From: Tabrizicola sp.
GTDB taxonomy: Bacteria > Pseudomonadota > Alphaproteobacteria > Rhodobacterales > Rhodobacteraceae
Reading direction: 5' to 3'
Assembly (NCBI RefSeq): GCF_030373185.1
Contig: NZ_JAUCZH010000008.1
Coordinates: 124,001 to 188,000 of the forward strand
DNA: 64,000 bases
The notes under the pieces are model-generated. The model was not told the origin of the DNA and made no database searches. It saw only the letters and a program-made list of their open reading frames with translations. Each line of letters starts with the position of its first letter. Position 1 is the stretch's first letter. Shown here one piece after another: positions 27,422 to 62,253 of this stretch. The position numbers and the translations under genes are program-made.

Positions 27422-27497
27422 TTCCCGTCTTCTTTCTGTCTTCCTTCCGTCTCTACGCGCGGGGAGAGGGGAGGGCGTTAACCATTGGGGGCGAATC
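27422..27497 (+). repeat. Intergenic element, copy 1 (second copy at 62178-62253)
   Basis: Aligned without gaps to the copy at 62178-62253, I count 56 of 76 identical bases. Invariant blocks are TTCCCGTCTT (27422), CTTCCGTCTCT (27444), GGGCGTTAACCA (27473) and GGCGAATC (27490), with the same spacing in both copies. GTCT recurs at 27427, 27438 and 27449, an exact 11-bp period. It lies 3' of yqgE and 24 bases from the end of a low-GC gene on the other strand. GTTAAC and the GANTC (CcrM) site are within it. Confidence 0.8.
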
Positions 27498-27520
27498 GGG
27501 GGTTGAGCGCTCGCCGAACG

Positions 27521-28393
27521 TCATGCTGACGGTTTGGAGAACCGATCTGCGACTCCCTTTATTGCGGCTATCAAACCGGTCCCACGATACTCGAACTCGT
27601 TTCCGACAAAATTCTTCATGTGCTCTCGAAGCAACTCCATCTTGAGTTTAGTTTCACGGTCAAAGATATCATCATCAGAAAGTTCGCCAGCAACGGATGC
27701 GGCCGCAATTGAAACTTCTTTTGCAATAATGCTCAACTTGGCAAACTCGAGTCTTTGCCGGTTAATCCTGATGATCTCAAACACAAGTCGCCCAACAATG
27801 TAACCACATGCTTCAACAAGTGCCAAGGCAACAATCACAAAGGGAAGCCTAGTAAGGAAGATCGTCCAGATATCAATATCAGGCGTTGTTTTGTAAAGTT
27901 GTGTCAAATCAACGGCATTTGAGAAAAGCTTAAGCAGGATGATCGCCAAGATCGCCGCGAACGGTGCCCCAATGCCGAGATACCATTTAATGCTCCGGTT
28001 CCCTTCCTTCACAAATCCCGCAATTTCGCTTGGAAAAAGCCGGACCTCGCGTATGAGAGCATCCCGCTTTGTGGTCTCACGTTCGACTTCGGAAACGACA
28101 TTGGACAATCGTTCATTTGCATCTGAAACCGACTTCTGAAGTTGCGCTTCTTGCTCCTTCTGCCTTGTCATCCGTTCGGTACCGGACGATATCGACTTTT
28201 GAAGTTGATCTAGTTCAGCCCTTGCGCGACCAACTGCGCCCTCAAGTTCGACTCGTTCTGCTGTTAGTTTTTCAAACTCTTCGGTTGATTCCGCTAGTTT
28301 AGTCTCACGTGCAGTTTGCTCTGCTGCCTTCTTTTCGTATTCTTTGACGGCCCATTCTAGGGTCAGGACCCATTGAACTTGCGCTTGCGGCAT
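27521..28393 (-). CDS. Low-GC coiled-coil membrane protein, 5' end replaced by IS sequence
   Basis: 290 aa as it stands. Residues 1-12 (MPQAQVQWVLTL) are encoded by the end of the IS element; the resident gene begins at about residue 13. Residues 14-105 form a long coiled coil rich in E, K, Q and R. Two membrane helices follow (about 133-153 and 180-207) and a soluble tail. Base composition is clearly lower in GC than the neighbours, suggesting transfer. GGAG eight bases before the ATG at 28393 lies inside the IS, so the element may now supply the start. No family recognised; possibly a defence- or phage-related accessory protein, unproven. Confidence 0.7.
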   Translation of the reverse strand: MPQAQVQWVLTLEWAVKEYEKKAAEQTARETKLAESTEEFEKLTAERVELEGAVGRARAELDQLQKSISSGTERMTRQKEQEAQLQKSVSDANERLSNVVSEVERETTKRDALIREVRLFPSEIAGFVKEGNRSIKWYLGIGAPFAAILAIILLKLFSNAVDLTQLYKTTPDIDIWTIFLTRLPFVIVALALVEACGYIVGRLVFEIIRINRQRLEFAKLSIIAKEVSIAAASVAGELSDDDIFDRETKLKMELLREHMKNFVGNEFEYRGTGLIAAIKGVADRFSKPSA

Positions 28394-29212
28394 GATTCAG
28401 GCTCCGCAAGGAGACCGATCAATGAGCAACCTTTTCTGGCTGACGGACGCACAGATGGCGCGTCTGGAACCCTTCTTTCCCAAGAGCCATGGCAAGCCAC
28501 GCGTCGATGACCGTCGCGTGCTGAGTGGCATTATCTTTATCAATCGCAATGGCTTGCGCTGGTGCGATGCACCCCGGGAGTATGGCCCGCCGAAGACCCT
28601 CTACAACCGTTGGAAGCGATGGGGCGACAAGGGCGTCTTCGCCCGGATGATGGAAGGTCTGGCGGCAGAGGCGGCCGTTCCGAAGACAGTGATGATCGAT
28701 GCCACCTATCTGAAGGCACACCGCACGGCGACCAGCCTGCGGTCGAAAAAGGGGGTGCTGACGATCAAAAGGGCCGCCTGATCGGCCGGACCAAGGGCGG
28801 CATGAACACAAAGCTGCATGCCGTCACCGATGCCGAGGGTCGCCCGATCCGCTTCTTCATGACGGCAGGCCAGATCAGCGACTACACGGGTGCGGCGGCC
28901 CTTCTGGACAGTCTGCCAAAGGCGGATTGGCTGCTGGCCGACCGCGGCTATGACGCCGACTGGTTCAGAGAAGCGTTGAAAGACAAGGGGATAAAGCCCT
29001 GCATCCCTGGCCGGAAGTCACGCGGCAAGCCCATCAAGCACGACAAGCGCCGCTACAAACGCCGCAACCGGATCGAGATCATGTTCGGGCGGCTCAAGGA
29101 TTGGCGGCGGGTTGCCACCCGCTACGACCGGTGCCCGAAGGTCTTCCTCTCCGCCGTCGCGCTCGCCGCAACCGTCATGTTCTGGCTATGAAACAAGAAC
29201 GAGTCCTGACCC
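28360..29212 (+). mobile_element. IS5-family insertion sequence (IS427-like), 853 bp
   Basis: The left end GGGTCAGGACC (28360-28370) is mirrored by GTCCTGACCC at 29203-29212. The element is flanked by TA on both sides (28358-28359 and 29213-29214), the expected target duplication for this group. It carries a DDE transposase in two overlapping frames. It has inserted into the 5' part of the low-GC coiled-coil gene. The reading frames look intact, so the element may be active. Confidence 0.88.
28422..29191 (+). CDS. IS5-family DDE transposase, two frames joined by -1 frameshift
   Basis: The first frame (28422-28781) begins MSNLFWLTDAQMARLEPFFP and contains the first catalytic Asp in MIDATYLKAH. 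The second frame, one base back, carries the TKLHAVTDAEGRPIRF segment, the second Asp in LLADRGYDADWF and the Glu in YKRRNRIEIMFGRLKDWRRV, ending at 29191. The overlap contains AAAAGGG near 28767, a likely slippery site for programmed -1 frameshifting typical of this group. AAGGAG lies eight bases ahead of the start. Confidence 0.87.
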
Positions 29213-29510
29213 TAAGAAATATCTATATAACAGATATTCAACCGGAGAATGTCAGTGTGACTCTGGGGCCGCCAAATCAAGATCGATCAGCGCCCGACGC
29301 ATTGCACAAATGCAGGCTCGTGCGTTGGCGCTCTTGGCTTGGAATCAGATGTGGTCAACCTTCGCCGGGAAGCGGACATTCGCTTGGAGGCATCGGGTTG
29401 GCAGCTCTGGCCGGTTCTGGCGCTTGGGGCATGCAGACCCCGGTCATTGCGGCGTGGATGCCGGAAAGTGTCGCCTTGCCCTGCGGGACTTCGCCGCTAC
29501 GTTCTTGACC

Positions 29511-30233
29511 ATGCGCGGTGTCTTGGCCCTTTGTCTTCTTGGCTTCCCTCTCCAGGCACAGGAGGTGGACCTGGAGCTTGTGCTTCTGGCGGATGCCTCC
29601 GGATCGATCACCCAGTCCGAGATCATTTTCCAAAGGCAAGGCTATGCGGCGGCGATCACTGATCCGGCGGTTCTGGCGGCGATCCGTAGCAACCTGACCG
29701 GGACGATTGCGGTGATCTATGTCGAATGGGCGGCCAATCAGGTGGCGGTGGTCGACTGGACGGTGATCGACGGAGAGCCTGCGGCCCGTGCCTTTGCCGA
29801 AGCTTTGCTGGGGCCGCCACGGCTGGCAACCGGGCGCAATGCGATTGGCGATGCATTGCTGGAAGGCAAGCGGCTGATCGAAACGAACCGGATCACCGGT
29901 CTGCGCCGGGTGATCGACTTTTCCAGCGACAGTCTGGGCAATTTCAGCGGCGTCGGCATCGCCGCCGCCCGGGCCGAGGTGCTGGCCGCCGGGATCACCA
30001 TCAACGGCCTGCCGATCCTTGATGACGGCGAGGGCGACCCGCTGGCCGACCTGTACCAGGCCGAGATCATCGGCGGCCCCGGGGCTTTTGTGCTGCCCGC
30101 CTACGGGCGTGAAGGCTTTGTGACGGCGGTGCGCCGCAAGCTGATTCTGGAAATCGCGGGCAAGCTTCCCGACCCCGGTGAAGGGCTTGCGGTGGTGGTA
30201 GCCGGCGATGTTTCCCCGCCGACAAAGCCCTGA
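29511..30233 (+). CDS. DUF1194 (von Willebrand A-like) secreted protein
   Basis: 240 aa. Signal peptide MRGVLALCLLGFPLQAQ, then a VWA-like domain: VDLELVLLADASGSI contains the DxSxS metal-ion-dependent adhesion motif, and later FSSDSLGNFSG and the INGLPILDD strand match DUF1194. Likely periplasmic or secreted. Function unknown. The 297 bases between the IS element and this gene hold a hairpin (AATATCT/AGATATT, 29218-29238) and no convincing gene. Confidence 0.88.
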   Translation: MRGVLALCLLGFPLQAQEVDLELVLLADASGSITQSEIIFQRQGYAAAITDPAVLAAIRSNLTGTIAVIYVEWAANQVAVVDWTVIDGEPAARAFAEALLGPPRLATGRNAIGDALLEGKRLIETNRITGLRRVIDFSSDSLGNFSGVGIAAARAEVLAAGITINGLPILDDGEGDPLADLYQAEIIGGPGAFVLPAYGREGFVTAVRRKLILEIAGKLPDPGEGLAVVVAGDVSPPTKP

Positions 30234-30291
30234 CCTTGCGGCCAGTGCAGAAGGCTGCGCGCGCCCAGCCGGATTGTCGCGAAAGGCGCGG

Positions 30292-31848
30292 TCAGAAATC
30301 CGTGGGCGCGCCACCTTCCTGTTTGCGCTTGGCCACGAAGCGGCGCAGCTCTTCCTGATGGTCGCCGTTCATGGCCGGGGCCTCGAACTCCGCGATGATC
30401 TGTTTGTAGATCCGGTGCGCGCGTTCCTGCGTCCAGACCCCGCCGTCGATCTGCCATGCCTCATAGTTGCGCCAGTCCGAACAGATCGGCGCGTAGAAGG
30501 CCTGCTGATAGCGGTCCTGGGTGTGCTGGACGCCAAAGTAATGCCCGTTCGGCCCCACCTCCTTGATCGTGTCGAAGGCAAGGTCGTCTTCGGTGGTGGC
30601 GAAGGTGGCTTCTTCGAAATAGCGCTGGATCATCTGCAGGACTTCGCAATCCATGATGAACTTTTCCGGGCTGGCGATCAGCCCGCCTTCAAGCCAGCCT
30701 GCCGCGTGATAGACCATGTTGGTCCCCGACTGGACAGCCGACCAAAGCGAGTTCGAGGTTTCCCACATCGCCTGTCCATCCGGCACGTTGGCCGCACAGA
30801 CGCCGCTGGCGCGCATCGGCACGCCGTAAAACCGCACCAGTTGCCCGGTCATCTGCGTGGCGCGCATGTATTCGGGTGTCCCGAAGGCAGGTGCGCCGGA
30901 TTTCATGTCGACGTTTGAGGTGAAGGTGCCGATTGCCACCGGGCAGCCGGGGTTGATGTATTGCAGCAGCACGACCGCCGCCAGCGCCTCGGCGATCGAC
31001 AGGGCGACCGCGCCCGACATCGTCACCGGGGCCATCGCCCCAGCCAGCGTGAAGGGCGTCACCACGACCGGTTGCCCGCGTCGCGCCATTCGCATGGCAC
31101 CGTCCAGCATCGGAAAGTCATGCTTCAGGGGCGAAACCGAGTTGATGTTGGTATACATCCGCGGCTTGGCCTGAAACTCTTCTTCCGTCAGCCCACCCGC
31201 GATGCGGACCATTTCCATCACGTCTTCGACCCGCTCTACGCCCAGCGAATAGGCGTGGACGACCTTGTCGGTCAGGGTCAGCTTTTCATACAGGCAGTCG
31301 AGGTGGCGGACCGAAGGGTGGATGTCGATCGGTTCGACCGGATAGCCGCCCGCCACATGGATGCAGTTGAAATACTGCGTCAGCTTCATGAATTCCCTGA
31401 ACGTCTCGAAGTCGCCTGACCGTTTGCCCCGCTCCATATCCCAGGCGTTTGGCGGCGATGAGACGTTGACGAAGACCATGTGCTTGCCGCCCATGATGAT
31501 TTCGCGGTCCGGGTTGCGCGGGGTGATGGTGAAGGTTGACGGCGCGCGGGCCACCATTTCCATCACGAAATCCTCGTCCATGCGGACGTTGGTGCCGTTC
31601 ACGATGCAACCGGCCTGTTTCAGGATTGCCGCCGCCTCGGGGTTCAGAAACTCGATCCCGATGTCACGCAGGATGCGCATTGCGGTCTTGTGGACGCGCT
31701 GCACACCGTCGGCGTCCAGGGGTTCTGTGGGCCGGTCGGGGTTGACCGGAATGCGCCAGGGCATCTGGTCGATCACCGCCGTGCCGGCACGAACCTGCAT
31801 GCCCGCCCGCCCGCCAGCGCGCTTTCTTCGGGTTGGCTCTTCGGTCAT
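30292..31848 (-). CDS. MttB-family (trimethylamine methyltransferase-like) protein, non-pyrrolysine
   Basis: 518 aa. Matches the COG5598 MttB superfamily, with the N-terminal region KTAMRILRDIGIEFLNPEAA, TPRNPDREIIMGG, and the barrel segments TNINSVSPLKHDFPMLDGA and TPFTLAGAMAPVTMSGA. True trimethylamine methyltransferases read an in-frame amber codon as pyrrolysine; this gene has none, so it belongs to the non-Pyl branch, whose characterised members demethylate betaines such as glycine betaine. No corrinoid protein is encoded nearby. Start at 31848 has CGGAGAG upstream. Confidence 0.87.
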   Translation of the reverse strand: MTEEPTRRKRAGGRAGMQVRAGTAVIDQMPWRIPVNPDRPTEPLDADGVQRVHKTAMRILRDIGIEFLNPEAAAILKQAGCIVNGTNVRMDEDFVMEMVARAPSTFTITPRNPDREIIMGGKHMVFVNVSSPPNAWDMERGKRSGDFETFREFMKLTQYFNCIHVAGGYPVEPIDIHPSVRHLDCLYEKLTLTDKVVHAYSLGVERVEDVMEMVRIAGGLTEEEFQAKPRMYTNINSVSPLKHDFPMLDGAMRMARRGQPVVVTPFTLAGAMAPVTMSGAVALSIAEALAAVVLLQYINPGCPVAIGTFTSNVDMKSGAPAFGTPEYMRATQMTGQLVRFYGVPMRASGVCAANVPDGQAMWETSNSLWSAVQSGTNMVYHAAGWLEGGLIASPEKFIMDCEVLQMIQRYFEEATFATTEDDLAFDTIKEVGPNGHYFGVQHTQDRYQQAFYAPICSDWRNYEAWQIDGGVWTQERAHRIYKQIIAEFEAPAMNGDHQEELRRFVAKRKQEGGAPTDF

Positions 31849-31952
31849 CGTCGCTCTCCGTTGTGCTTGAAGCGAAGATGACGGATGCAGTCGGAAAATG
31901 GACACCGTAGCAGCGACGCAAAAGCGTCGTTTTCATGCCATCGGCCTTATAC

Positions 31953-32645
31953 TCAGCTGCGCAGACCGACCAGCCAGCCGGGAATGGCCCCGATATCGGC
32001 CAGAACCACATCGGCATGCGGGGCCAGATCGGCGGCTTTGGCAACCCCGGTCAGCACCGCGATGGTCCGCATCCCGGCGGCCCTTCCCGCCTCCAGATCG
32101 TGCCGGCTGTCGCCCACCATTGCGACCCGCGCCGGGTCAAGGCCAAGTGTTGCGGCAAAGGCAAGGCACATGCCGGGGCCGGGCTTTGCGCCATGGCCGG
32201 AATCATAGCCCGCGATGAAGTCGAAGCAATCGGTGATCCCGTGTGCGGCCAGATGCTGGCGCGCGGGGGCTTCGCTGTCATTGGTGGCAACACCAAGCTT
32301 GAGACCCGCAGCCCGAAAGCCGGACAGAAGCGGTCGAAGCGGCACCGCCTCGGACATCGGTGCAGCACCCGCGGTTTCATCAATCCGGGCCGTCAGGGCT
32401 GCGACCGACTGCCCCGGAAGATGGGGTGCCAGAGCTGCCGCGATGTCGGCGGCTGTGGCGGCGATCACCGGGCTGTCAGGGGCGAAGGCAAGACTTTCGG
32501 CGTCAAAGCCGATGGCACGGCCCAGCCGGTCGGCGTGGCCCGGATCTTCCGCGACCGAGGACAGAAACCCCGCCGCCCAGCGACCCCAACTGATGCGGAA
32601 GTCGAACAGCGTTCCATCCTTGTCGAAAAGCAGTCCGTCGATCAT
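31953..32645 (-). CDS. HAD-family hydrolase, phosphoglycolate phosphatase-like
   Basis: 230 aa. HAD motif I DKDGTLFD sits right at the N-terminus, motif II is GVATNDS, and motifs III/IV include AKPGPGM and MVGDSRHDLEAGRAAGM. The cap domain between I and II is helical, as in Gph-like enzymes. Substrate is not determinable; phosphoglycolate is the nearest guess. Starting at the ATG at 32645 puts motif I in its usual place. Followed by the MttB-like gene after 104 bases. Confidence 0.87.
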   Translation of the reverse strand: MIDGLLFDKDGTLFDFRISWGRWAAGFLSSVAEDPGHADRLGRAIGFDAESLAFAPDSPVIAATAADIAAALAPHLPGQSVAALTARIDETAGAAPMSEAVPLRPLLSGFRAAGLKLGVATNDSEAPARQHLAAHGITDCFDFIAGYDSGHGAKPGPGMCLAFAATLGLDPARVAMVGDSRHDLEAGRAAGMRTIAVLTGVAKAADLAPHADVVLADIGAIPGWLVGLRS

Positions 32646-32712
32646 GTCTTGGCAATCCTTGAGGTTGCGGGCTTGGAGTTTGCCCAGAAAATGGGGGGCT
32701 GGGATCCGGGGT

Positions 32713-32991
32713 TCAAGTCCAGTGGACGGGTGCGCCCCCCGGCAGGGCGGCGCGGGCCGCCAAAGGCGCAGTATAGGGCAGGGCATGCTGGTCACAGAAA
32801 GCGATGACCCAGTGATCGTCCATCATCAGGAAATCGAGAATCGCCCCCTGAAAGTCAACATCCCCGGCGCGATCCCGCAGATCTCCGATGCTCGCGCCGG
32901 TTGCGTTAAGGAATGTCGGGAACAACTCGTCATCCGCTGCAAGCCAAGCCAAAGCCTGAAGCGCGAGGACATGAGCGGATTCTTGCTGCAT
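32713..32991 (-). CDS. DUF3572 domain-containing protein
   Basis: 92 aa, the usual length. Family sequence ESAHVLALQALAWLAADDELF, then FLNATGASIGDLRDRAG, and the C-terminal FLMMDDHWVIAFCDQHALPY and ALPGG. No known function. It is commonly encoded next to the PleD-type response regulator in alphaproteobacteria, and here it is divergent from it, 135 bases away. The ATG at 32991 gives the normal N-terminus; the longer frame is not used. Confidence 0.88.
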   Translation of the reverse strand: MQQESAHVLALQALAWLAADDELFPTFLNATGASIGDLRDRAGDVDFQGAILDFLMMDDHWVIAFCDQHALPYTAPLAARAALPGGAPVHWT

Positions 32992-33126
32992 TTCTTGGGT
33001 TTCCTGCGCTTCTGCCGTCTGATCCTCCCGGCAATATGACGATTGGCAGGAATTCGGAAAGGATTTCTTAACCAACTCGGTAACACACTGTTCAGCATCC
33101 CGGTCCTGGGTTGATGAAGGCGAAAG

Positions 33127-34512
33127 ATGAACGGTCGGATCCTCATTGTTGACGACGTGGCGACAAACCGGATCGTTTATCGGGCGCGTCTGTCGGCAGC
33201 CTTTTACGAGCCGGTCATGGTCAATGATGGCGCAAGCTGTCTTGCCGTGGCGCAGTCGCATGCGGACCAGCGGCCTGATCTTATCTTGCTGGATCTCAGC
33301 CTGCCCGACATGCCGGGTCAGGAAGTGCTGCGCCGTTTGCGGGCCGATCCGCGAAGCCGCGATATCCCGGTGATCGTGCTGACCGCAGCGCAGGATCCGG
33401 GCGCGCGGCTGGCGGCCTTTGCGGCGGGCGCGGATGATGTGATCGTCAAACCGGCGGCGGACCGGCTGTTGCTGGCTCGGGTCCGCAACCTGTTGCGGGC
33501 GCGCGTCGGGCTGGAATTCGCCGCCGGCGGAGCGTTGCCGGTTACGGGGCTTTCTGAAGCGGCGGTTGCGTTCGAACCTTCTGGAACCGTTGCCGTCGTC
33601 TCACCGCAGCAGGATCTGGCCCGGCGGCTCACGCAGGATCTTTCCGAGCATTTGCGGGACCGCCTTGTGGTGCTGTCTCGTACCCAGGCCCTTGCCGAGG
33701 CGGCGGCTTCCGCCGGCCCGGATATCTTCATCGTTCAAGATGACGACAGCGATGATGCCGGGGCGCTGCATCTGCTTTCCGAATTGAAAAGTCATCAGGC
33801 GACGCATCATGCGGCGGTCTGCGTGCTGTCTCGCAGTTGCAAGGGCGATGCGGCGGCGATGGCCTTTGACCTTGGTGCCGATGATGTGGCGGGGCCGGGG
33901 GTGACGGCCACCGAACTTGCGGTGCGCCTGCGCAGCCTGCTGCGCCGCAAGCGCGCGGGTGACCGGCAACGCGCGCGGATGCAGGACAGCCTGCGGCTGG
34001 CGCTGGTCGACCCGCTGACCGGCCTTTACAATCGGCGCTATGCGGTGCCGCAACTGACGGCCATTGCCGCCCGCGCCGCAGAAACGGCAACCGATTTCGC
34101 GGTGATGGTGGTGGATCTGGACCGCTTCAAGTTGGTCAATGACCAGCATGGCCACGCTGCCGGCGATCAGGTGCTGGTGGAAGTGGCGCGCCGCTTGACG
34201 GCGAACATGCGCGATACGGATCTTCTGGCGCGGATCGGGGGCGAGGAATTCCTGGTCGTGTCGCCGGACAGCAGCATGGCAGACGCCCGCCGCGTGGCCG
34301 AAAGGTTGTGCCAGGCGGTCGACGAATACCCGGTCCACCTTGCCTCGGGGCAAGCGCTGAGCGTTACGGTGTCGATCGGGGTGGCTGTGTCGAACGGCCT
34401 TTCGGGCAGGGCGATGGCGATGGACGCGGTTGTGGAACAGGCGGATCTGGCACTGCTTGAGTCAAAGGTTGCCGGGCGCAATCAGGTGACCTTTCGGTCA
34501 AGCGCTGCCTAG
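33127..34512 (+). CDS. pleD: PleD-like response regulator with diguanylate cyclase domain
   Basis: 461 aa: receiver domain (1-120; acidic pair DD9-10, phospho-acceptor Asp56 in LILLDLSLPD, Lys in VIVKP), a second degenerate receiver domain (about 150-270), and a GGDEF domain (about 290-455). The active-site loop is GGEEF at residues 371-375. An RxxD inhibitory site (RDTD, 362-365) lies five residues ahead. It should synthesise cyclic di-GMP after phosphorylation and be subject to product inhibition. In Caulobacter PleD controls the swarmer-to-stalked transition; the role here is inferred. Confidence 0.92.
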   Translation: MNGRILIVDDVATNRIVYRARLSAAFYEPVMVNDGASCLAVAQSHADQRPDLILLDLSLPDMPGQEVLRRLRADPRSRDIPVIVLTAAQDPGARLAAFAAGADDVIVKPAADRLLLARVRNLLRARVGLEFAAGGALPVTGLSEAAVAFEPSGTVAVVSPQQDLARRLTQDLSEHLRDRLVVLSRTQALAEAAASAGPDIFIVQDDDSDDAGALHLLSELKSHQATHHAAVCVLSRSCKGDAAAMAFDLGADDVAGPGVTATELAVRLRSLLRRKRAGDRQRARMQDSLRLALVDPLTGLYNRRYAVPQLTAIAARAAETATDFAVMVVDLDRFKLVNDQHGHAAGDQVLVEVARRLTANMRDTDLLARIGGEEFLVVSPDSSMADARRVAERLCQAVDEYPVHLASGQALSVTVSIGVAVSNGLSGRAMAMDAVVEQADLALLESKVAGRNQVTFRSSAA

Positions 34513-34530
34513 CCCCCGTTTGCGGTGCCT

Positions 34531-35046
34531 TCAGTCTCGCTTGGTGCGGCGCAGGCCTTTCTCTAGCCGGTCGGCAAAGGCCAGCCGGTCGGCGTCTGAC
34601 ATCTGCGCGATCCGCGCCTCGATCAGGCCGCGACCCAGTTCCAGCCGCCCGGCGTTGCGAGCCTCGATGGCGGCAAGGGCCGACTGGACGGCGCCCGGGT
34701 CAAACGGGCTGGCGCGCAAGGCGTCAAGAAGGGCGGCGAATTCGGCCTGGGCGGCCTGACGCGTCTCGCGAAAGCCGGGGGCGCGGTCGATCAGGGACTT
34801 GCGCAGCGCGCGTCGGTCCTCAAGGCTCAGGGCCTCGCTGAACGGGCCAAAGGACAGATCCCGCGGCATCCCGCGGCTGGGTCCGTCCTTCAGCCAGGCA
34901 CCGGCAACCATCCCGGCCACGGCAAGGTTCAGGGCGACCGAGATGGCAAGCGCAATCTTCAGCCCGCGCGCCGAAGGGGTCGGCGGCGTGGGAACTGGTG
35001 CCGTGGGGGGGGCAGGAGGCGTGGGGTCCGGCCTGGTGTCAGTCAT
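34531..35046 (-). CDS. Periplasmic heavy-metal sensor-like membrane protein
   Basis: 171 aa. Pro-rich cytosolic N-terminus (1-27), one membrane helix (GLKIALAISVALNLAVAGMVAGAWL), then a helical periplasmic domain with SFGPFSEALSLEDRRALRKSL and two long helices. This fits the periplasmic heavy-metal sensor (CnrX/ZraP-like) family, although I see no cluster of metal-binding His or Met. It follows the ECF sigma factor and the short membrane protein on the same strand, so it may take part in an envelope-sensing circuit. Confidence 0.78.
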   Translation of the reverse strand: MTDTRPDPTPPAPPTAPVPTPPTPSARGLKIALAISVALNLAVAGMVAGAWLKDGPSRGMPRDLSFGPFSEALSLEDRRALRKSLIDRAPGFRETRQAAQAEFAALLDALRASPFDPGAVQSALAAIEARNAGRLELGRGLIEARIAQMSDADRLAFADRLEKGLRRTKRD

Positions 35047-35050
35047 GAGA

Positions 35051-52195: not shown

Positions 52196-52198
52196 GCC

Positions 52199-54391: not shown

Positions 54392-54413
54392 TCCGGCTTA
54401 CTGATCCGGCTGC

Positions 54414-55139: not shown

Positions 55140-55198
55140 GAAAAATTCACAACTCTCCGATTGGCCAAACCGACCAGAGACGCTATGATTTGTATAGT

Positions 55199-55216
55199 TG
55201 TATAGACGACTAGACA
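55199..55216. promoter_or_regulatory. Candidate PhnF operator
   Basis: TGTATAGACGACTAGACA is an imperfect 18-bp palindrome (14 of 18 positions symmetric) with TAGAC half-sites, the type recognised by HutC/PhnF-group GntR repressors. An additional TTGTATAG lies just upstream at 55190-55197. It sits between phnF and phnG. Confidence 0.65.
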
Positions 55217-55238
55217 ACCCGAAAAGAAGTGTAGACCG

Positions 55239-55682
55239 ATGACCGATGCTTCCCCCATTGCCCGCAAGGACTGGATGGCCGTTCTCGCCAAGGCGGCGCC
55301 CGCAAGGCTTGCCGCGCTGATGCCCGACCTGCCGCCCCACACGACTTTGCGCAACCCCGAGACGGGGGCGGTCATGGTCCGGGGGCGGGTCAGCGCGACC
55401 GGTGCGCCGTTCAATCTGGGGGAAATGACCGTCACCCGCTGTTCTGTCCGGCTGGAAGACGGCGCGGTCGGGCATGCCTGGGTGCAGGGCCGCGACAAGG
55501 CGCACGCCCGGCGCGCGGCGATTGTCGATGCGCTGATGCAGACCGGTGCCGCAGCGGCGATGCGGGCGCATATCATCGCCCCCCTTGCTGGCGAGGCCGC
55601 CGCTGCCCGCAGCCAGCGGGCCGAAAGGGCCGCCGCAACCAAGGTCGATTTCTTCACCATGGTCAGGGGGGAAGACCAATGA
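55239..55682 (+). CDS. phnG: C-P lyase core complex subunit PhnG
   Basis: 147 aa. Family sequence VMVRGRVSATGAPFNLGEMTVTRCSVRL and GHAWVQGRDKAHARRAAIVDAL. Part of the PhnGHIJ core that forms alkylphosphonate ribose triphosphate. First gene of phnG-H-I-J-K-L-N, with stop overlapping phnH by four bases. Confidence 0.93.
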   Translation: MTDASPIARKDWMAVLAKAAPARLAALMPDLPPHTTLRNPETGAVMVRGRVSATGAPFNLGEMTVTRCSVRLEDGAVGHAWVQGRDKAHARRAAIVDALMQTGAAAAMRAHIIAPLAGEAAAARSQRAERAAATKVDFFTMVRGEDQ

Positions 55683-56260
55683 CAGCCACGATCTCCGGCG
55701 ACACCCTTTCCGGCGGCTTCACCGAAGCCCCGATGCAATCTGCCCGTGCCTTCCGCGAAATCCTGGAGGTGCTGGCCCGGCCCGGCCTGATCCGCACGGT
55801 CACCGGGGCCGCGCCGCCGGCACCCCTGTCCATTGCCGCCGGTGTGGCGCTTCTGACGCTGACCGATCCGACCACGCCGCTGCACCTGGCCGGGGCGGCC
55901 GATTGCCAGCCGGTGCGCGACTGGGTGGCTTTCCACATCGGCGCCCCGCTGGTTGCGGCCGAAGAGGCGGACTTCGCCCTTGGCACCTGGGACGCGCTGC
56001 AACCGGTTGCCCGGTTCAGGATCGGCCAGCCGGATTATCCCGACCGGTCCGCCACGCTGATCGTGGAGCTTGACCGGCTGACGAACCACGGCCCGGCCCT
56101 GTCCGGCCCGGGGATTGCGCTGTCGACCTGGCTTTCCCTACCCGAAACCGCAGCCTTCCGGGCCAATCGGGCGCTGTTTCCGCTGGGCTATGACTGCCTC
56201 TTCACCTGCGGCGACCGGCTGGCCGGTCTGCCAAGATCCACCCGAGTGGAGAATATCTGA
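55679..56260 (+). CDS. phnH: C-P lyase core complex subunit PhnH
   Basis: 193 aa. PhnH segments: SARAFREILEVLARPG, the central ADFALGTWDAL, and the C-terminal FPLGYDCLFTCGDRLAGLPRSTRV. A structural subunit of the core complex with a pyridoxal-transferase-like fold but no active site. Overlaps phnG by four bases and phnI by one. Confidence 0.93.
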   Translation: MTATISGDTLSGGFTEAPMQSARAFREILEVLARPGLIRTVTGAAPPAPLSIAAGVALLTLTDPTTPLHLAGAADCQPVRDWVAFHIGAPLVAAEEADFALGTWDALQPVARFRIGQPDYPDRSATLIVELDRLTNHGPALSGPGIALSTWLSLPETAAFRANRALFPLGYDCLFTCGDRLAGLPRSTRVENI

Positions 56261-57345
56261 TGTATGTCGCCGTCAAGGGTGGCGAACGCGCCATCGACAA
56301 TGCCCATGCCTGGTTGGCCGAAGAACGCCGGGGTGATCCCGCCGTGCCAGAGCTGACCATTGCGCAGATCCGCGGACAGATGACTCTGGCGGTGAACCGG
56401 GTCATGGCCGAAGGCTCGCTTTATGATCCGGACCTTGCCGCCCTTGCCATCAAGCAGGCGCGCGGCGATCTGATCGAGGCGATCTTCCTGATCCGGGCCT
56501 ACCGGACGACGCTGCCACGTCTTGCGGGATCGAACCCGGTGGATACAGGGGCCATGACAGTCGACCGCCGGATCTCGGCCACGTTCAAGGACTTGCCTGG
56601 GGGGCAGGTGCTGGGGTCGACCTTTGACTACACTCACCGCCTCTTGGACTTTGCCCTGATGGCCGAAGGGTCCGAAGTGCCTTCCGGCGCCAGCGCTCCC
56701 GCCACTCCTGGCCCGATGCCGCATGTGACCAGCTTTCTGAACCGGGACGGGCTGATCGAAACCGCGCCGCCGTCCGACACCACACCGCCTGACCTGACGC
56801 GTGAGCCCCTGGAACTGCCGGCCGACCGGTCGCTGCGCCTTCAGGCGATCACCCGTGGGGATGAGGGGTTCATCCTGTCGATGGCTTATTCCACCCAGCG
56901 CGGCTACGGGCGCACCCATGCTTTCGTGGGTGAATTGCGGATCGGCACCGTCGCGGTGGAGGTCGACATCCCCGAGCTTGGTTTCGCTGTGGAGATCGGC
57001 GAGGTCGAACTGACCGAATGTGAGACCGTGAACCAGTTCAAGGGCAGCCGGACCGAGCCGCCGCAGTTCACGCGCGGCTATGGGCTGGTCTTCGGCCAAA
57101 GCGAACGCAAGTCCATCGCGATGAGCCTTGTCGACCGGTCGCTGCGCTGGAAAGAGCTTGGCGAGGACTTCACCGGCGCCCCGGCGCAGGATGAGGAATT
57201 CGTGCTTTACCACTGTGACAACATCCAGGCGACCGGGTTTCTGGAACATATCAAACTACCGCACTACGTTGATTTTCAGGCCGAGCTGGAACTGGTCCGG
57301 CGACTGCGGGCCGAGGCGCAGGCAATGCAGGAGGCCGCGGAATGA
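56260..57345 (+). CDS. phnI: C-P lyase core complex subunit PhnI
   Basis: 361 aa. Begins MYVAVKGGERAIDNAHAWL, the usual PhnI start, and contains DPDLAALAIKQARGDLIEAIFLIRAYRTTLPR. PhnI together with G, H and L displaces the base of a nucleoside triphosphate and attaches the phosphonate to the ribose 1-position. Overlaps phnJ by four bases. Confidence 0.95.
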   Translation: MYVAVKGGERAIDNAHAWLAEERRGDPAVPELTIAQIRGQMTLAVNRVMAEGSLYDPDLAALAIKQARGDLIEAIFLIRAYRTTLPRLAGSNPVDTGAMTVDRRISATFKDLPGGQVLGSTFDYTHRLLDFALMAEGSEVPSGASAPATPGPMPHVTSFLNRDGLIETAPPSDTTPPDLTREPLELPADRSLRLQAITRGDEGFILSMAYSTQRGYGRTHAFVGELRIGTVAVEVDIPELGFAVEIGEVELTECETVNQFKGSRTEPPQFTRGYGLVFGQSERKSIAMSLVDRSLRWKELGEDFTGAPAQDEEFVLYHCDNIQATGFLEHIKLPHYVDFQAELELVRRLRAEAQAMQEAAE

Positions 57346-58205
57346 CCGATCAGGCTTACAACTTCGCCTACCTAGACGAACAGACCAAGCGCATGATCCG
57401 CCGCGCGATCCTGAAGGGCATTGCGGTGCCGGGTTATCAGGTTCCCTTTGCCAGCCGCGAGATGCCGATGCCTTATGGCTGGGGGACGGGCGGCGTCCAG
57501 GTGACGGCCGCCTGCCTTGTGCCGGAAGACCTGCTGAAGGTCATCGACCAGGGCGCTGATGACACCACCAACGCGGTATCGATCCGCAAGTTCTTCCAGC
57601 GCACCGCAGGGGTTGCCACCACCGAGGCCACGGCCGAGGCGACCGTGATCCAGACCCGCCACCGCATCCCCGAGGTGCCGCTGACCGAGGGTCAGATCCT
57701 TGTCTATCAGGTGCCGATCCCGGAACCCCTGCGCTTTCTGGAACCACGCGAGACCGAGACGCGAAAGATGCACGAGCTGGAGGAATACGGGCTGATGCAT
57801 GTCAAGCTTTACGAAGACATCGCCCGACATGGCGAGATTGCCACCAGCTATGCCTATCCGGTCAAGGTCGAGGGGCGCTATGTGATGGACCCTTCGCCGA
57901 TCCCGAAATTCGACAACCCCAAGCTTGGCCAAAGCCCTGCGATCCAGCTGTTCGGCGCGGGGCGTGAGCAGCGCATCTACGCCCTGCCGCCCTATTCGGA
58001 TGTGGTCAGCCTTGATTTCGACGATCACCCGTTTCAGGCGTCGAAAGCGCCGCATGACTGCGACCTTTGCGGTGCGAAGGACAGCTATCTGGATGAGGTG
58101 ATCACCGATGACGCGGGTGGGCGGATGTTCGTCTGTTCCGACACCGATTTCTGCGCTGGACGCCGGGCCGAAGGCCATGTCGGACGGCTGGGAGAACCGG
58201 TATGA
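57342..58205 (+). CDS. phnJ: Radical SAM carbon-phosphorus lyase
   Basis: 287 aa, closely similar to E. coli PhnJ (MIRRAILKGIAVPGYQVPF near the N-terminus). Four Cys with the spacing of the E. coli enzyme are present at 240, 243, 265 and 271; three bind the 4Fe-4S cluster and the last corresponds to the thiyl-radical Cys272. Gly31 matches the catalytic Gly32. It breaks the C-P bond of alkylphosphonate ribose 5-phosphate, giving an alkane and a cyclic phosphate. Confidence 0.97.
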   Translation: MTDQAYNFAYLDEQTKRMIRRAILKGIAVPGYQVPFASREMPMPYGWGTGGVQVTAACLVPEDLLKVIDQGADDTTNAVSIRKFFQRTAGVATTEATAEATVIQTRHRIPEVPLTEGQILVYQVPIPEPLRFLEPRETETRKMHELEEYGLMHVKLYEDIARHGEIATSYAYPVKVEGRYVMDPSPIPKFDNPKLGQSPAIQLFGAGREQRIYALPPYSDVVSLDFDDHPFQASKAPHDCDLCGAKDSYLDEVITDDAGGRMFVCSDTDFCAGRRAEGHVGRLGEPV

Positions 58206-59008
58206 CCCTGCACCCGAGAAATCCCGAAATTTCGCATGGAACAGCGACGCCCGATCAGCCCTTGCTCAAGGTCGAGGGCCTGACCAAGCGCTACGGCCCC
58301 CGGATCGGCTGCCTTGATGTCAGCTTTGATCTTTACCCCGGCGAGGTGCTGGGAATCGTGGGCGAAAGCGGGTCGGGCAAGTCCACGCTTCTGTCCTGCC
58401 TCGCCGGACATCAGCGCGCCGATCTTGGCCGCATCGCCTATGATGGCCGCGATGTGCTCGCGATGTCCGAAACCGAACGCCGCCGCCTTGGCCGCACCGA
58501 TTGGGCCTATGTCCACCAGAACCCGCGCGACGGGTTGCGGATGGGGGTCAGCGCCGGTGGCAATGTCGGTGAACGGTTGATGGCCGTGGGCGCGCGCCAC
58601 TACGGTGACATCCGGGGCAAGGCCGCCGACTGGCTGGGCCGGGTGGAGATTGCGGGCGACCGGATCGACGACCGACCGTCAGCCTTTTCCGGCGGCATGC
58701 AACAGCGGCTCCAGATCGCGCGGAACCTTGTGACCTCGCCGCGCCTCGTGTTCATGGATGAACCCACGGGCGGGCTTGATGTGTCCGTTCAGGCCCGACT
58801 TCTGGACCTTTTGCGTGGGCTGGTGCGTGACCTTGGCCTTTCGGTCATCATCGTGACGCATGACCTTGCCGTGGTCCGGCTGCTGGCCCACCGCCTGATG
58901 GTGATGAAATCGGGCCGCGTGGTTGAACAGGGCCTGACCGATCAGGTTCTGGACGATCCGCAGCATGCCTATACGCAACTTCTCGTCTCTTCTGTCTTGC
59001 AGGTGTAA
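58202..59008 (+). CDS. phnK: C-P lyase ABC-type protein PhnK
   Basis: 268 aa. Walker A GESGSGKST, signature FSGGMQQRLQIARNL, Walker B LVFMDEPTGGLD. Not a transporter: PhnK binds the PhnGHIJ core and probably couples ATP hydrolysis to its working cycle. Overlaps phnJ by four bases; phnL follows after a gap of four. Confidence 0.93.
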   Translation: MTLHPRNPEISHGTATPDQPLLKVEGLTKRYGPRIGCLDVSFDLYPGEVLGIVGESGSGKSTLLSCLAGHQRADLGRIAYDGRDVLAMSETERRRLGRTDWAYVHQNPRDGLRMGVSAGGNVGERLMAVGARHYGDIRGKAADWLGRVEIAGDRIDDRPSAFSGGMQQRLQIARNLVTSPRLVFMDEPTGGLDVSVQARLLDLLRGLVRDLGLSVIIVTHDLAVVRLLAHRLMVMKSGRVVEQGLTDQVLDDPQHAYTQLLVSSVLQV

Positions 59009-59012
59009 CCCC

Positions 59013-59711
59013 ATGATCCGGATTGAAAACCTGTCGAAATCCTTCACGATGCACAATCAGGGCAGCGCCACGATCCCGGTCATGGTGGGGGCGCGCCTGA
59101 CCATTGCCCCCGGCGAATGTGTCGGCCTGACCGGCCAGTCCGGCGCGGGCAAATCCACTCTGATGCGGATGGTCTGGGGCAACTACCTTGCCGCCGGGGG
59201 CAGCATCATGGTTGGGGAAACCGACGTCGCCACCGCCCAACCGCGCCAGATCATTGCGCTCCGCCGGGAAACCCTTGGCTATGTCAGCCAGTTCCTCCGC
59301 GTCGTCCCGCGCGTGCCGACGCTGGACGTGGTGGCGGAACCACTTCTGGCCCTTGGTACCCCCTTGACCGAAGCCCGCGACCGCGCCGCCACCTTGCTCG
59401 CCCGCCTGAACATCCCCGAACGGCTCTGGTCCCTGTCGCCCACCACCTTTTCGGGGGGCGAACAGCAGCGTGTCAACATCGCGCGCGGCTTTGCCCATGC
59501 CTACCCGGCGCTTTTGCTGGACGAACCCACCGCCAGTCTTGATGCGGCGAACCGAGAGGTCGTCCTGTCCCTGATCGACGAGGCCAAGGCGCGCGGTGCC
59601 GCCATCCTTGGCATCTTCCACGACGAAGGCGCGCGGTCCCGCGTCTGCGACCGTCTGGTCGATGTGACGGGATTCACGCCGCCAAACATCAAAGCCGGGG
59701 CTGCCGCATGA
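59013..59711 (+). CDS. phnL: C-P lyase ABC-type protein PhnL
   Basis: 232 aa. Walker A GQSGAGKST, signature FSGGEQQRVNIARGF, Walker B LLLDEPTASLD. With PhnG, H and I it is required for the first step of phosphonate attachment. Start at 59013 is the ATG just after the phnK stop. Overlaps phnN by four bases. Confidence 0.93.
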   Translation: MIRIENLSKSFTMHNQGSATIPVMVGARLTIAPGECVGLTGQSGAGKSTLMRMVWGNYLAAGGSIMVGETDVATAQPRQIIALRRETLGYVSQFLRVVPRVPTLDVVAEPLLALGTPLTEARDRAATLLARLNIPERLWSLSPTTFSGGEQQRVNIARGFAHAYPALLLDEPTASLDAANREVVLSLIDEAKARGAAILGIFHDEGARSRVCDRLVDVTGFTPPNIKAGAAA

Positions 59712-60232
59712 TCTTCGCCATCGTCGGCCCCTCAGGTGCAGGCAAGGACACGCTGATCGAAGGCGCGCTGCGGCTGCGCCCTGACCTCCGACTGATCCGC
59801 CGCGTCATCACCCGGCCAACCGGGGCAGGCGGCGAGGATTTCGAGGGCGTGACCGAGACCGACTTCGCCACCCGGCTGTCGCGTGGCGAATTTGCCCTGC
59901 ACTGGCAGGCGCACGGCCTGTCCTACGGCATCCCGAAGGCGCAACTTGCAGCCCCCGGCGGCGTGATCTTCAACGGCAGCCGTGCCGCCTTGCCGCAGGC
60001 CGTTCAGGTCTTCCCCAACCTTCGCGTGATCCTTGTAACCGCGCCGGACACCATCCTTGCAGCACGCCTAGCCGCCCGAGGACGTGAGAGTGAGGCCGAC
60101 ATCCGCCAACGCCTGACCCGTGTCGCCTTCACCCTGCCCGCAGGGATCACAGCGGAAACGGTGGTCAATGACGGTGCGCTGGAAACCGGCATTGTCCGGC
60201 TTCTGGCCACCCTTCAGCCGGTCAGAGCGTAG
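59708..60232 (+). CDS. phnN: Ribose 1,5-bisphosphate phosphokinase
   Basis: 174 aa, guanylate-kinase-like fold with P-loop GPSGAGKDTLIEGA. It converts ribose 1,5-bisphosphate into PRPP so the ribose from C-P lyase can be reused. The 3' end overlaps the convergent DUF1045 gene by 19 bases. Last plus-strand gene of the G-to-N run. Confidence 0.93.
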   Translation: MIFAIVGPSGAGKDTLIEGALRLRPDLRLIRRVITRPTGAGGEDFEGVTETDFATRLSRGEFALHWQAHGLSYGIPKAQLAAPGGVIFNGSRAALPQAVQVFPNLRVILVTAPDTILAARLAARGRESEADIRQRLTRVAFTLPAGITAETVVNDGALETGIVRLLATLQPVRA

Positions 60233-60867
60233 CGGTGCAGAAGATGAAAAGCGCCCGCAGCATCTTCGCCGAACAGGCACAGATCCTTAATCACGAAGGG
60301 GCGGGGCAGCGCGTCGGCGAAATATGCCTGAAGGGCCACCAGCACCGGCAGAGCCTCTGCCTCGGGCAATCGGTCGGTCAGGGTCAGGTGGAACCGAAAC
60401 TCTTCCATTACATAGGGATAGCCCCACAGGTCCAGCAGCGCCCGCTGGCGCGAGGACAGGCTTTCGGGCCGGCGTCGCGCAATTTCAGCCGGGCCAAGCG
60501 GCGCGCGCAGGGGATTGGTCGCTTCGACGACTGCCGCGCCAAGCTCCAGCAGCGCCGCCTCGCAACCGCTTGGGGTCAGGGCCAGAAATCCGTGCAGGTT
60601 CTCCAGCACCAACCCGTCGCAGCGGACGGGTGCCAGCCGGGCGGCAAGGGCGGCAACGGCGTTTGCGATTGCGGCTTCATCCACGCCTTCACCGGGCCGG
60701 AATGGCGCGCGGATCGTGCCGTGAAAGCCGTATCGGCGCGGATCGGTGGTGATCTCTGCCGCTGGCCGGGGCAGGCCGGGAAGCGCTTGGCCGCCCGACA
60801 GCCACGCCTTTGCCCGGTCGGCGAAATCCCCGGGACGTGGGGCGAAATAGACAGCGTAGCGTTTCAT
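60214..60867 (-). CDS. DUF1045 2H-phosphoesterase of the phosphonate locus
   Basis: 217 aa from the ATG at 60867 (60876 is also possible). Two H-x-T motifs, HGTIRAPF near residue 50 and HLTLTD near residue 165, mark the 2H phosphoesterase fold, which opens cyclic phosphodiesters. The family (DUF1045) is repeatedly linked to phn operons. phnP, which opens the 5-phosphoribosyl 1,2-cyclic phosphate made by PhnJ, is missing from this window, so this protein is a reasonable substitute. Convergent overlap with phnN, divergent from phnM. Confidence 0.86.
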   Translation of the reverse strand: MKRYAVYFAPRPGDFADRAKAWLSGGQALPGLPRPAAEITTDPRRYGFHGTIRAPFRPGEGVDEAAIANAVAALAARLAPVRCDGLVLENLHGFLALTPSGCEAALLELGAAVVEATNPLRAPLGPAEIARRRPESLSSRQRALLDLWGYPYVMEEFRFHLTLTDRLPEAEALPVLVALQAYFADALPRPFVIKDLCLFGEDAAGAFHLLHRYALTG

Positions 60868-60898
60868 CTGGTCCATGGTCGGCGGCCTACAGGGTGCG

Positions 60899-60916
60899 TG
60901 TCACACGGGTGTGACA
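60899..60916. promoter_or_regulatory. Inverted repeat TGTCACA-N4-TGTGACA upstream of phnM
   Basis: A perfect 7-bp inverted repeat in the 104-bp gap between the divergent DUF1045 gene and phnM. It may be a regulator operator acting on both genes. It also resembles one PhoB half-site (TGTCAC), but the second half is not in direct orientation. Confidence 0.5.
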
Positions 60917-60971
60917 GGTCCATGGCAGTCAGCCTCTCCTCCGGGCCAGTTTCAAGACAGGATATGGGAAG

Positions 60972-62114
60972 ATGACCGAGACAATCCTAGCCAATGCCAC
61001 GCTGGTCCTTGAAGGCGAGGTTCTGCGCGGGCAGATCAGGCTGGCGGAAGGCCGCATTGCCGACATCGCCGAAGGCGGCGTGATCCCGCCGGGGGCCATT
61101 GATTGCGGCGGCGATCTGGTGATGCCGGGTCTGGTGGAGTTGCACACCGACAACCTCGAACGCCATATCGAGCCGCGCCCCAAGGTCAACTGGCCGCATC
61201 AGTCGGCCATCGTGGCGCATGACGCGGAACTGGCCAGCACCGGGATCACCACGGTGTTTGACGCGCTGCGGGTGGGATCCTTGGTGGCGGCGGGCAAGAC
61301 CAGCTACGGCGAATACGCCCGGGCGCTGGCCGACGAAATTCTGGAACTGCGCCGCGATGGGGCCTTGAAGATCAGCCACTTCCTGCATTTGCGGGCCGAG
61401 GTCTGCTCTGAAACGCTGGTGGCCGAGCTTGCCAAGTTCGGCCCCGAGGATCAGATCGGCATCGTCAGCCTGATGGACCATACCCCCGGTCAGCGCCAGT
61501 TCCGCGACATCTCGAAGCTCAAGGAATACTACACCGGCAAATATGGCCTGTCCGAGGCCGACTGGTCGGACCATGTGACCACGCAAAAGGCCCTGCGTGA
61601 CCGGGTGGGTGACGCGCATGAGGCGGCCGTTGTGGCCGAATCCCGCCGTTTTGGGGCCGTTTTGGCCAGCCATGACGACACCACGGCGGATCAGGTGGCC
61701 ACCAGCGCCAGCCACGGTGTCCACTTTGCCGAGTTTCCGACTACGACAGAGGCGGCGGCGGCCTGCCGCGCGCATGGCATCAAGGTGATGATGGGCGGGC
61801 CGAACCTGATCCGCGGTGGCAGCCACTCCGGCAATGTCGCCGCCAAGGAACTGGCCGAGGCGGGGCTGCTGGATATTCTGTCTTCGGATTATGTGCCGTC
61901 GTCGCTTTTGTCGGGTGCGCTGTTTCTGGGCGACCTGTGGGGCGATGTCGCGCGTGGGGTGGCGACAGTCACCACCGCGCCGGCCACCGCCACCGGGCTT
62001 GCCGACCGGGGCGCGCTGCGGCCCGGGTTGCGCGCCGATGTGATCCGCGTGGCCCGGGTGGGGCGCGCCGCCGCGCTGCGCGGGGTCTGGGTTGGAGGCG
62101 GTCGGGTTGGCTGA
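60972..62114 (+). CDS. phnM: Alpha-D-ribose 1-methylphosphonate 5-triphosphate diphosphatase
   Basis: 380 aa amidohydrolase-fold enzyme. It removes pyrophosphate from the ribose triphosphate intermediate before PhnJ acts. Visible: GDLVMPGLVELHTDNLERHIEPRP (metal-binding His and the acceptor segment), LMDHTPGQRQFRD, and SHDDTTADQV. A single gene separated from phnG-N by the DUF1045 gene. The 76-bp repeat element starts 64 bases after its stop. Confidence 0.94.
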   Translation: MTETILANATLVLEGEVLRGQIRLAEGRIADIAEGGVIPPGAIDCGGDLVMPGLVELHTDNLERHIEPRPKVNWPHQSAIVAHDAELASTGITTVFDALRVGSLVAAGKTSYGEYARALADEILELRRDGALKISHFLHLRAEVCSETLVAELAKFGPEDQIGIVSLMDHTPGQRQFRDISKLKEYYTGKYGLSEADWSDHVTTQKALRDRVGDAHEAAVVAESRRFGAVLASHDDTTADQVATSASHGVHFAEFPTTTEAAAACRAHGIKVMMGGPNLIRGGSHSGNVAAKELAEAGLLDILSSDYVPSSLLSGALFLGDLWGDVARGVATVTTAPATATGLADRGALRPGLRADVIRVARVGRAAALRGVWVGGGRVG

Positions 62115-62177
62115 CTTGGCCAAGCCCTTGCGAACGCTGGGGTAATCGGCCTTCCGCCGGGGTTGTCCGGCACCTTA

Positions 62178-62253
62178 TTCCCGTCTTGCACGCGTCTTTC
62201 TTCCGTCTCTGCGCACGGGGGAGTGGCGGGGCGTTAACCAGCCTTGGCGAATC
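62178..62253 (+). repeat. Intergenic element, copy 2 (first copy at 27422-27497)
   Basis: The same conserved blocks as copy 1 occur at identical offsets: TTCCCGTCTT (62178), CTTCCGTCTCT (62200), GGGCGTTAACCA (62229) and GGCGAATC (62246). GTCT recurs at 62183, 62194 and 62205, an exact 11-bp period as in copy 1. It lies 3' of phnM and 97 bases before the end of a low-GC minus-strand gene. The rest of the 236-bp gap contains a C-run/G-run hairpin-like stretch (62266-62299). Confidence 0.8.

Follow-up and report, generated by a model that had tools for sequence, protein, structure and literature searches.

A 64,000-nucleotide stretch of Tabrizicola sp. GCF_030373185.1 (hereafter the window; contig C8, offset 124000) carries a 76-bp sequence twice, at 27422-27497 and 62178-62253, which raises the question of what recognizes it. 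An initial annotation had proposed that GTCT motifs recurring every 11 bp allow a protein to read the same face of the helix three times, and had named a nucleoid, replication, or cell-cycle protein or an integration hot-spot as possible explanations. The two copies were compared with others in their own genome (G000) and in related genomes; G and L labels denote the genomes and loci compared. The element is probably a dispersed protein-DNA site read by a solitary ribbon-helix-helix (RHH) protein of the BrnA family. The family of copies, their phasing, the species-specific spellings (dialects) of their core, the linkage to an RHH gene, and the match between one protein residue and the dialect are seen at the sequence level.

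Both copies lie at these coordinates and align without gaps, with 56 of 76 positions identical. Four invariant blocks (offsets 0, 22, 51, and 68) and three GTCT motifs at 11-bp spacing (offsets 5, 16, and 27) were verified in both, as were the neighbors described for them, each copy being flanked by a plus-strand gene (left) and a low-GC minus-strand gene (right). The next-best match to copy 1 in the window, with both strands considered, reached 40/76. None of 300 random 76-mers from the window reached 56 elsewhere (best, 45), and 50 first-order Markov windows gave at most 41/76. The similarity of the two copies is not due to chance.

The element is longer than first noted, approximately 140 bp, and the 76-bp stretches are its middle. 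A left module (GAACGCTGnGTTAATCC) is followed by ~30 variable bases, direct 11-bp units, and a terminal unit (CGTCTCTACGCGCG in the own genome), and then, after 13-25 further variable bases, by the right module GTTAACCAT-N4-GCGAATC. The units have the form GT-M-T-four variable bases-T-S-C, in which the "GT" at each 11 bp hardly varies from dialect to dialect. Copy 1 has an extra GTCTT unit 11 bp upstream (27416) that is degenerate in copy 2. The parts of the two copies in the window, with the basis for each, are as follows.

27365..27502, plus strand: copy 1, ~140-bp element (profile R1, E = 1.5e-29; C8:151365-151502).
27416..27459, plus strand: copy 1 core, four 11-bp units, GTCTTTTTCCC GTCTTCTTTCT GTCTTCCTTCC GTCTCTACGCG (sequence and dialect comparison).
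27477..27497, plus strand: copy 1 right module, GTTAACCAT...GCGAATC (sequence; conserved in alignments A1 and A2).
62118..62256, plus strand: copy 2, ~140-bp element (profile R1, E = 6.3e-24; C8:186118-186256).
62172..62215, plus strand: copy 2 core, degenerate first unit ACCTTATTCCC, then GTCTTGCACGC GTCTTTCTTCC GTCTCTGCGCA (sequence).
62233..62253, plus strand: copy 2 right module, GTTAACCAG...GCGAATC (sequence).

Several dialects have as their terminal unit the unit itself in inverted form (GTATGC/GCATAC, GTATGG/CCATAC, and GTCGGG/CCCGAC). At L440 and L449 the third unit is off-dialect and the terminal motif does not track it, which favors a protein half-site over a stem. Arrays of another class (class B) lie at gene starts and consist of the core, the outer modules being absent (L004, L007, L009, and L012 in the own genome; also L015 and L020). 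Common to the class B arrays at L004, L020, L164, L243, and L438 are a second palindrome resembling TTGCGCAA and a long dyad around ACGCGCGT; the dyad arms differ between the own genome (CCTTCCGTCTCTACG) and G015 (CCGTCCATGCATACG) and are still nearly complementary.

Further copies were found both in the own genome and in relatives. A pattern search with up to three mismatches gave 13 matches in the own genome, two of which are one array in shifted register, and the reversed-pattern control gave none. Profile R1, built from 32 copies (alignment A1), found 15 places there at E ≤ 4e-10, plus weaker ones; the copies it finds favor the TTCC dialect, its source. R1 matched 31 of 32 genomes of the same genus (E ≤ 1e-6; 1-34 matches per genome), including all 23 of good quality. 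An exact pattern was present in 106 stretches of a named genome collection, and the 80 of these listed came from Tabrizicola, Xinfangfangia, Rhodobacter, and otherwise unnamed Rhodobacteraceae or Rhodobacterales, some being titled "Pseudomonadota." A broader profile, R2, from 63 diverse copies (alignment A2), had matches, many of them weak, in 41/295 genomes of the family (40/294 genera) at E ≤ 1e-3 with strict filters. Most of 21 family loci inspected by eye had GCGTATGGCNN- or GCGTCGGNNNN-type runs repeating at 11 bp. Many copies with conserved 11-bp phasing are best explained by a protein reading one face of the helix, as the initial annotation had suggested. Viral contigs gave no match to two exact element patterns, and a literature search, in which few subscription papers were within reach, returned no description of the element or of its reader.

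Two variants of the architecture were noted. Sites L255, L259, and L262 of G151 have a deviant T-rich core (GTCGTTTTTCC and GTATATACA) behind a longer left spacer, and a reader for this dialect was not found. In the distant genera represented by L402 (G311), L409 (G323), and L405 (G079), the array is followed by a GTTAACGCA-CGCGC-like stretch, not by GTTAACCAT-N4-GCGAATC, and this stretch is possibly an alternative right module in some distant genera.

At orthologous sites the outer modules are kept and the units are spelt per species (TTCC, GGCA, GCAT, or GGAA). The unit is GTCTTCCTT in the own genome, G003, G011, G012, G018, and G107; GTCTTCCAT in G334; GTCTGGCA in G001; GTATGCAT, together with TGCATACG, in G330 and G015; and GTATGGAA, with CCATACG or CATACATACG, in G008. 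The terminal motif was TGCATACG at 10/10 G330 sites and of the CTCTACG type at 15/15 own sites. We then compared identity within and between 23 genomes at 89 of 140 sites, having dropped duplicates, sites at which no array or no GTTAA could be recovered, and sites next to yqgE (the location of copy 1, whose left neighbor we take to encode a YqgE-like protein). Core identity was 0.714 within and 0.601 between genomes (equaled in 0/2000 label permutations), left-flank identity was 0.403 and 0.370 (10/2000), and the right flank showed no genome effect (0.598 and 0.599; 981/2000). At the yqgE site, for which 30 loci were returned, 28 inspected, and 18 parsed, the order was reversed across 18 genomes (153 pairs): 0.745 for the left flank, 0.655 for the core, and 0.830 for the right flank. 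Judged by these identities, the core follows the genome and the flanks follow the site. A strictly uniform core per genome was rejected, as at least two dialects coexist in G326, G327, and G008. Crude motif classes were 8 CNGACG/CGGAC-type, 4 TGCATACG-type, and 1 CATACG-type in G326, and 10 CATACG, 1 CTCTACG, and 1 other in G008.

A candidate reader is encoded next to one of the own arrays. Only 19 bp separate the element at C17:8338-8457 from the start of a gene whose 170-amino-acid product matches Pfam BrnA_antitoxin (PF14384; E = 7.2e-12, 46 bits against a cutoff of 26.1), which we take, by family, to have the RHH fold. The gene is divergent from a DUF484 gene and a XerC-like gene, and the contig ends 219 bp past it. 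A search of all loci fetched identified homologs beside arrays; 14 of these loci are from the genus or genera close to it, and the others are from three genera farther away. The array was just upstream of the gene for all 17 readers found, with 46-69 bp between array end and start codon in 14/14 measured and ~65-76 bp by eye in the three distant genera. Those three loci were the best R2 match of their genome, a search in which the protein was unused (3 of 23 best-hit loci, L396-L418). PF14384 exceeded its curated cutoff in 11/11 of the 17 readers that were tested (the own reader and 10 others, some as domain letters only). By eye, and with no profile hidden Markov model run, no obvious BrnT was seen in the two longest open reading frames (ORFs) of the 900 bp downstream of nine readers. 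No reader match was obtained among phages at E ≤ 1e-3 or with NCBIfam (0/5 readers), and a PDB sequence search gave four matches (E 0.24-0.88), none relevant.

The predicted DNA-reading strand, KVKVNLGL in the own reader, links protein to dialect: its residue 5 matches the dialect of the adjacent array in 17/17 readers. Residue 5 is N in 8/8 readers whose arrays have T at unit base 5 (GTCTT; own, L081, L108, L077, L071, L117, G334, and G107), T in 7/7 whose arrays mostly have GG at bases 5-6 (G008, both of G326, G001, G135, G146, and G094), and C in 2/2 whose array ends in TGCATACG (G330 and G015). The exact chance of this split is ~1e-6 if labels are exchangeable; the species, being related, do not provide independent observations.

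Two RHH genes are present in G326, one encoding KEKVTLRL with GTCTGGC/GTCGGGC units upstream and one encoding KVKVTLAL with GTATGGA units; the latter gene is near xerC and split over two frames, and the former is near lepA. At the matching lepA-side site the own genome has a reader relic only, in which 37 residues past the strand are 54% identical (E = 5.5e-5).

L163:1397-1507 (the same as L179:9847-9957), contig C6: own reader relic beside a mixed-dialect array.

The first unit of that array is GTCTGGC and the next two are of the TTC type. From the shared gene context, we infer that the relic derives from a KEKVTLRL-type paralog. In G330 and G008 the array at the lepA-side site persists without a detectable reader, in the dialect of the xerC-site reader. 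In six relatives, the stretches fetched beside XerC-like genes had neither a reader nor an array above the score limit. Such patterns of relic, orphan array, and joint absence would be expected were arrays to follow the reader that each genome has kept.

We propose that the solitary BrnA-family RHH protein binds the 11-bp units head to tail, with one dimer per unit and cooperatively, by analogy with ParR on its repeats. The array upstream of the reader's own gene would then probably mediate autorepression, and the same kind of array would be bound elsewhere in each genome, at between a few and about 36 places, commonly at gene 3' ends. When the DNA-reading strand changes, the site units would drift to the new spelling, and the flanking modules (GTTAATCC on the left and GTTAACCAT-N4-GCGAATC on the right) would stay because something else reads them.

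Multicopy sequences with species-specific spelling are familiar from repetitive extragenic palindromic (REP) repeats with their REP-associated tyrosine transposases (RAYT) and from DNA-uptake-sequence dialects. The element resembles these in copy number and in variation of spelling between species, and differs in its conserved outer modules and in having an RHH protein as candidate reader. Its likeness to R1-type ParR/parC lies in the combination of direct 11-bp repeats and a protein that is RHH by family. ParR is an RHH protein that binds 10-11-bp direct repeats of a plasmid centromere, and its specificity families are such that a noncognate parC is not bound by a ParR (PMC9426499). Unlike parC, the sites described here are chromosomal, number many per genome, are often at gene ends, and have conserved outer modules; and, unlike in the plasmid-borne system, neither copy 1 nor the reader matched any of 72,556 plasmid records, in a comparison that did not include a search for ParM. 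Like BrnTA type II toxin-antitoxin systems, the reader carries a BrnA_antitoxin domain, and its gene is preceded by an array; unlike them, it has no BrnT-like neighbor noticeable by eye and many dispersed sites. Sites of the OmpR family, including those of CenR, are likewise direct repeats, one per helical turn. The CenR protein of Rhodobacter sphaeroides recognizes TGA-N8-TGA at promoters of its regulon (PMC9275681). The arrays have a different consensus, which the CenR motif does not fit.

The placement of the arrays bears on what a bound array may do. For 140 copies, some orthologous or duplicate, flanking genes were arranged +- in 55, ++ in 33, -- in 27, and -+ in 13; seven of the remaining copies lie within a predicted gene and five could not be assigned. 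Convergent gaps held 45/122 genus sites and 13/24 G205 sites, compared with 50/306 background gene pairs in the own genome and 47/342 in G205. Genes for these counts were called by a simple codon-usage scorer, and the counts of convergent gaps excluded sites without both neighbors (12 in the genus, including 1 own, and 6 in G205). That arrays are often found at 3' ends and between convergent genes, and prefer neither strand by much, is in keeping with a roadblock or boundary that works both ways. We tentatively favor such a role for the bound array at gene ends over chromosome anchoring or use as an integration target, while regarding it as a possibility that may well prove wrong.

Several observations weigh against a BrnA-type reader acting at these sites. 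Reader loci were mostly fetched for their array, so that linkage is partly ascertainment, and the 17 cases do not count as independent. No reader was found in the stretches fetched from G205, G314, and G335, for which no genome-wide search was made. The AlphaFold model of the reader is poor (predicted local distance difference test score of 53) and unfit for structure search. One unit in the array of L081, an N reader from Xinfangfangia pollutisoli, is GTCTGCC; the two C readers have promoter units reading CTAC, ATCC, or ATTC, with TGC only in the terminal motif; and the G107 reader has R at strand position 7 yet a TCCT core, so that position 7 is no simple code. In G326, 4/13 sites are of the TGCATACG type and no matching reader was found, and the yqgE sites of G327 and G328 are of the GGCA type, the other sites inspected in these genomes being of the TTCC type. 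As regards placement, convergent gaps are not enriched in the own genome alone (3/14 sites), and tandem genus sites lean toward ++ (35 versus 22 --). Intrinsic terminators were found for the left and right genes of background convergent pairs in 7 and 5 of 24 cases in the own genome and in 2 and 3 of 24 in G205, and at sites in 1 and 1 of 3 (own), 9 and 7 of 45 (genus, including own), and 0 and 0 of 13 (G205); these counts speak neither for nor against a roadblock role.

The genes on either side of the copies bear on another proposal, namely, that the element serves as an attachment site and that a recombinase inserts foreign single-gene cassettes at its right end. The neighbors in the window are as follows.

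26777..27358, plus strand: left neighbor of copy 1, an ORF; the element follows its ortholog in 20/28 same-genus loci (by eye).
27521..28393, minus strand: right neighbor of copy 1, a single gene (48% GC) for 290 amino acids, coiled-coil and membrane-like by eye.
62351..62902, minus strand: right neighbor of copy 2, a single gene (46% GC) for 183 amino acids, Pfam DUF7255 (E = 6.9e-8).

The right neighbor of copy 1 had no Pfam family above cutoff and weak coiled-coil matches only in PADLOC. Adjoining it, transposase-like ORFs, which we assume to be IS5-like, occupy two overlapping frames at 28392-29191 of the window. Among the 134 of 140 sites that are distinct, GC content was below 0.56 to the right of the element at 23/132 (first 400 bp) and 24/130 (next 400 bp) and to the left at 0/134 and 0/131. 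With duplicates counted, the left bin 800-1200 bp away was low at 1/140. Low-GC right sites in the own genome numbered 3/15 and 4/14, against 7/301 and 8/297 for other 3' ends (~9-11-fold excess), and in G205 1/30 and 3/30, against a background of 3/347 and 6/344. The low-GC islands inspected were mostly one gene of 0.6-1.8 kb. From 40 low-GC ORFs listed, 20 were hand-picked for Pfam and 10 for PADLOC. Fourteen of the 20 had no Pfam match at E ≤ 0.01, and four were above cutoff (DUF7255, CoiA_N, Asp_protease_2, and YfbU). The most notable PADLOC matches were to an HNH endonuclease type (E = 5.5e-25) and a TIR effector (1.8e-6), with AbiJ matched weakly (7.9e-4). Some of the low-GC orphan genes, of which loci L310-L324 hold further examples, thus resemble defense genes: the HNH type lies beside the G205 element L249 and the TIR type beside the G007 element L192.

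The initial annotation's hot-spot is partly supported: low-GC single genes do lie beside the element, on one side within 800 bp and above background, but no recombinase beyond the XerC/XerD-like ones recurs. In favor of integration, the low-GC asymmetry (23/132 right, 0/134 left, and 7/301 at own background 3' ends) is joined by the yqgE site, where differing single genes follow the element in each species and homology stops at GAATCG. Homology naturally stops where constraint stops, however, and there is hardly any free space between the left stop codon and the element. Because the element nearly fills the left gap, one-sidedness alone is no proof of targeted integration; the excess over background is stronger. 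Cargo orientation is mixed, no common right-border motif was seen in four loci aligned, and PF00589 proteins are present in 11/11 genomes searched, yet only the XerC/XerD-like pair recurs by score. A dedicated tyrosine recombinase was sought among those PF00589 proteins and none was seen. Insertion tolerance can explain the low-GC neighbors in part, and we consider an integration target unlikely. At the yqgE site, a REP-like palindrome around GGTGCGCTGTAGCGCACC occurs soon after GAATCG in L332, L334, L337, L338, L347, and L352, and another palindrome, GGTGGGTTGGCACCCACCCTACG, occurs in the element-free G007 site (L331).

A cell-cycle site, at which CtrA and CcrM (or GcrA) would act on GTTAACCAT and GAATC with the array as accessory, was among the original suggestions and is improbable. 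Within the right module, the conservation of GTTAACC and GAATC is genuine, with the GTTAA and GAATC columns among the conserved ones, and CtrA or CcrM, whose sites we presume these motifs to be, may have a role there. The full CtrA site is TTAA-N7-TTAA. The flank holds a half-site only, a single GTTAACC on the right, and the other GTTAAT is ~92 bp away. In the own genome, moreover, arrays at four gene starts have no right module, and the array has an independent and better candidate in the RHH protein. Orientation relative to origin and terminus was also examined. In the closed genome G205, copies occur in both orientations round the chromosome, not in one orientation per replichore as for FtsK-orienting polar sequences (KOPS) or Ter sites, so that CtrA, replication, or the cell cycle was set aside as the principal explanation. 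Replication polarity was rejected after the eight best G205 matches had looked perfectly polar and the full list proved mixed; given these mixed orientations, the uniform orientation of strong matches within own contigs is likely chance.

That the element works in the transcript, as an RNA structure or terminator, is very improbable. The 3'-end preference and the dyad around ACGCGCGT in some copies would fit, but between tandem genes both sense and antisense placements occur (33 against 27 copies; 35 against 22 within the genus), and RNAalifold on 32 class A copies gave three pairs, none with double (compensatory) changes. No Rfam family reached its gathering score in the window; at E ≤ 1, seven loci gave five weak matches, one being CcsR1 at 23.2 against a cutoff of 65.3. 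The dyad TCTCTACGCGCGTAGAGA was rejected as an RNA hairpin, being strong in some copies, missing in others, and without covariation in RNAalifold; over 38 copies, 62% of its cells are paired, and shifting the partner by 1 to 4 positions leaves 46-57% paired. A functionless mobile repeat of the miniature inverted-repeat transposable element or REP kind would also be intergenic and in many copies, but it is scarcely credible given that position is kept across species at the yqgE site, that drift is concentrated in the core, and that no terminal inverted repeats were noticed in the alignments, in which target-site duplications were not searched systematically.

A site bound by the BrnA-family protein retains our preference, and a wider role for that protein can be imagined. 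In Rhodobacteraceae, a domesticated, toxin-less BrnA might have become a chromosome-wide architectural protein, coating the phased arrays at gene ends and so making them boundaries beside which foreign single genes are tolerated or kept. Its specificity would evolve by substitutions in one beta strand, with dozens of sites following, and duplicated readers would run two dialects in one cell, a bacterial counterpart of readers that evolve rapidly with their sites, such as PRDM9 or centromere proteins. We regard this as speculative and on balance doubtful. Site spelling and the DNA-reading part of the protein appear, from the genomes compared, to change together between species. If the proposal is true, a widespread repeat would become a testable protein-DNA system with a readable code (strand residue 5 versus unit bases 5-6), part of the BrnA family would gain a role beyond toxin-antitoxin pairs, and bacteria would offer a case in which a reader and its tens of dispersed sites can be watched co-evolving across related species.

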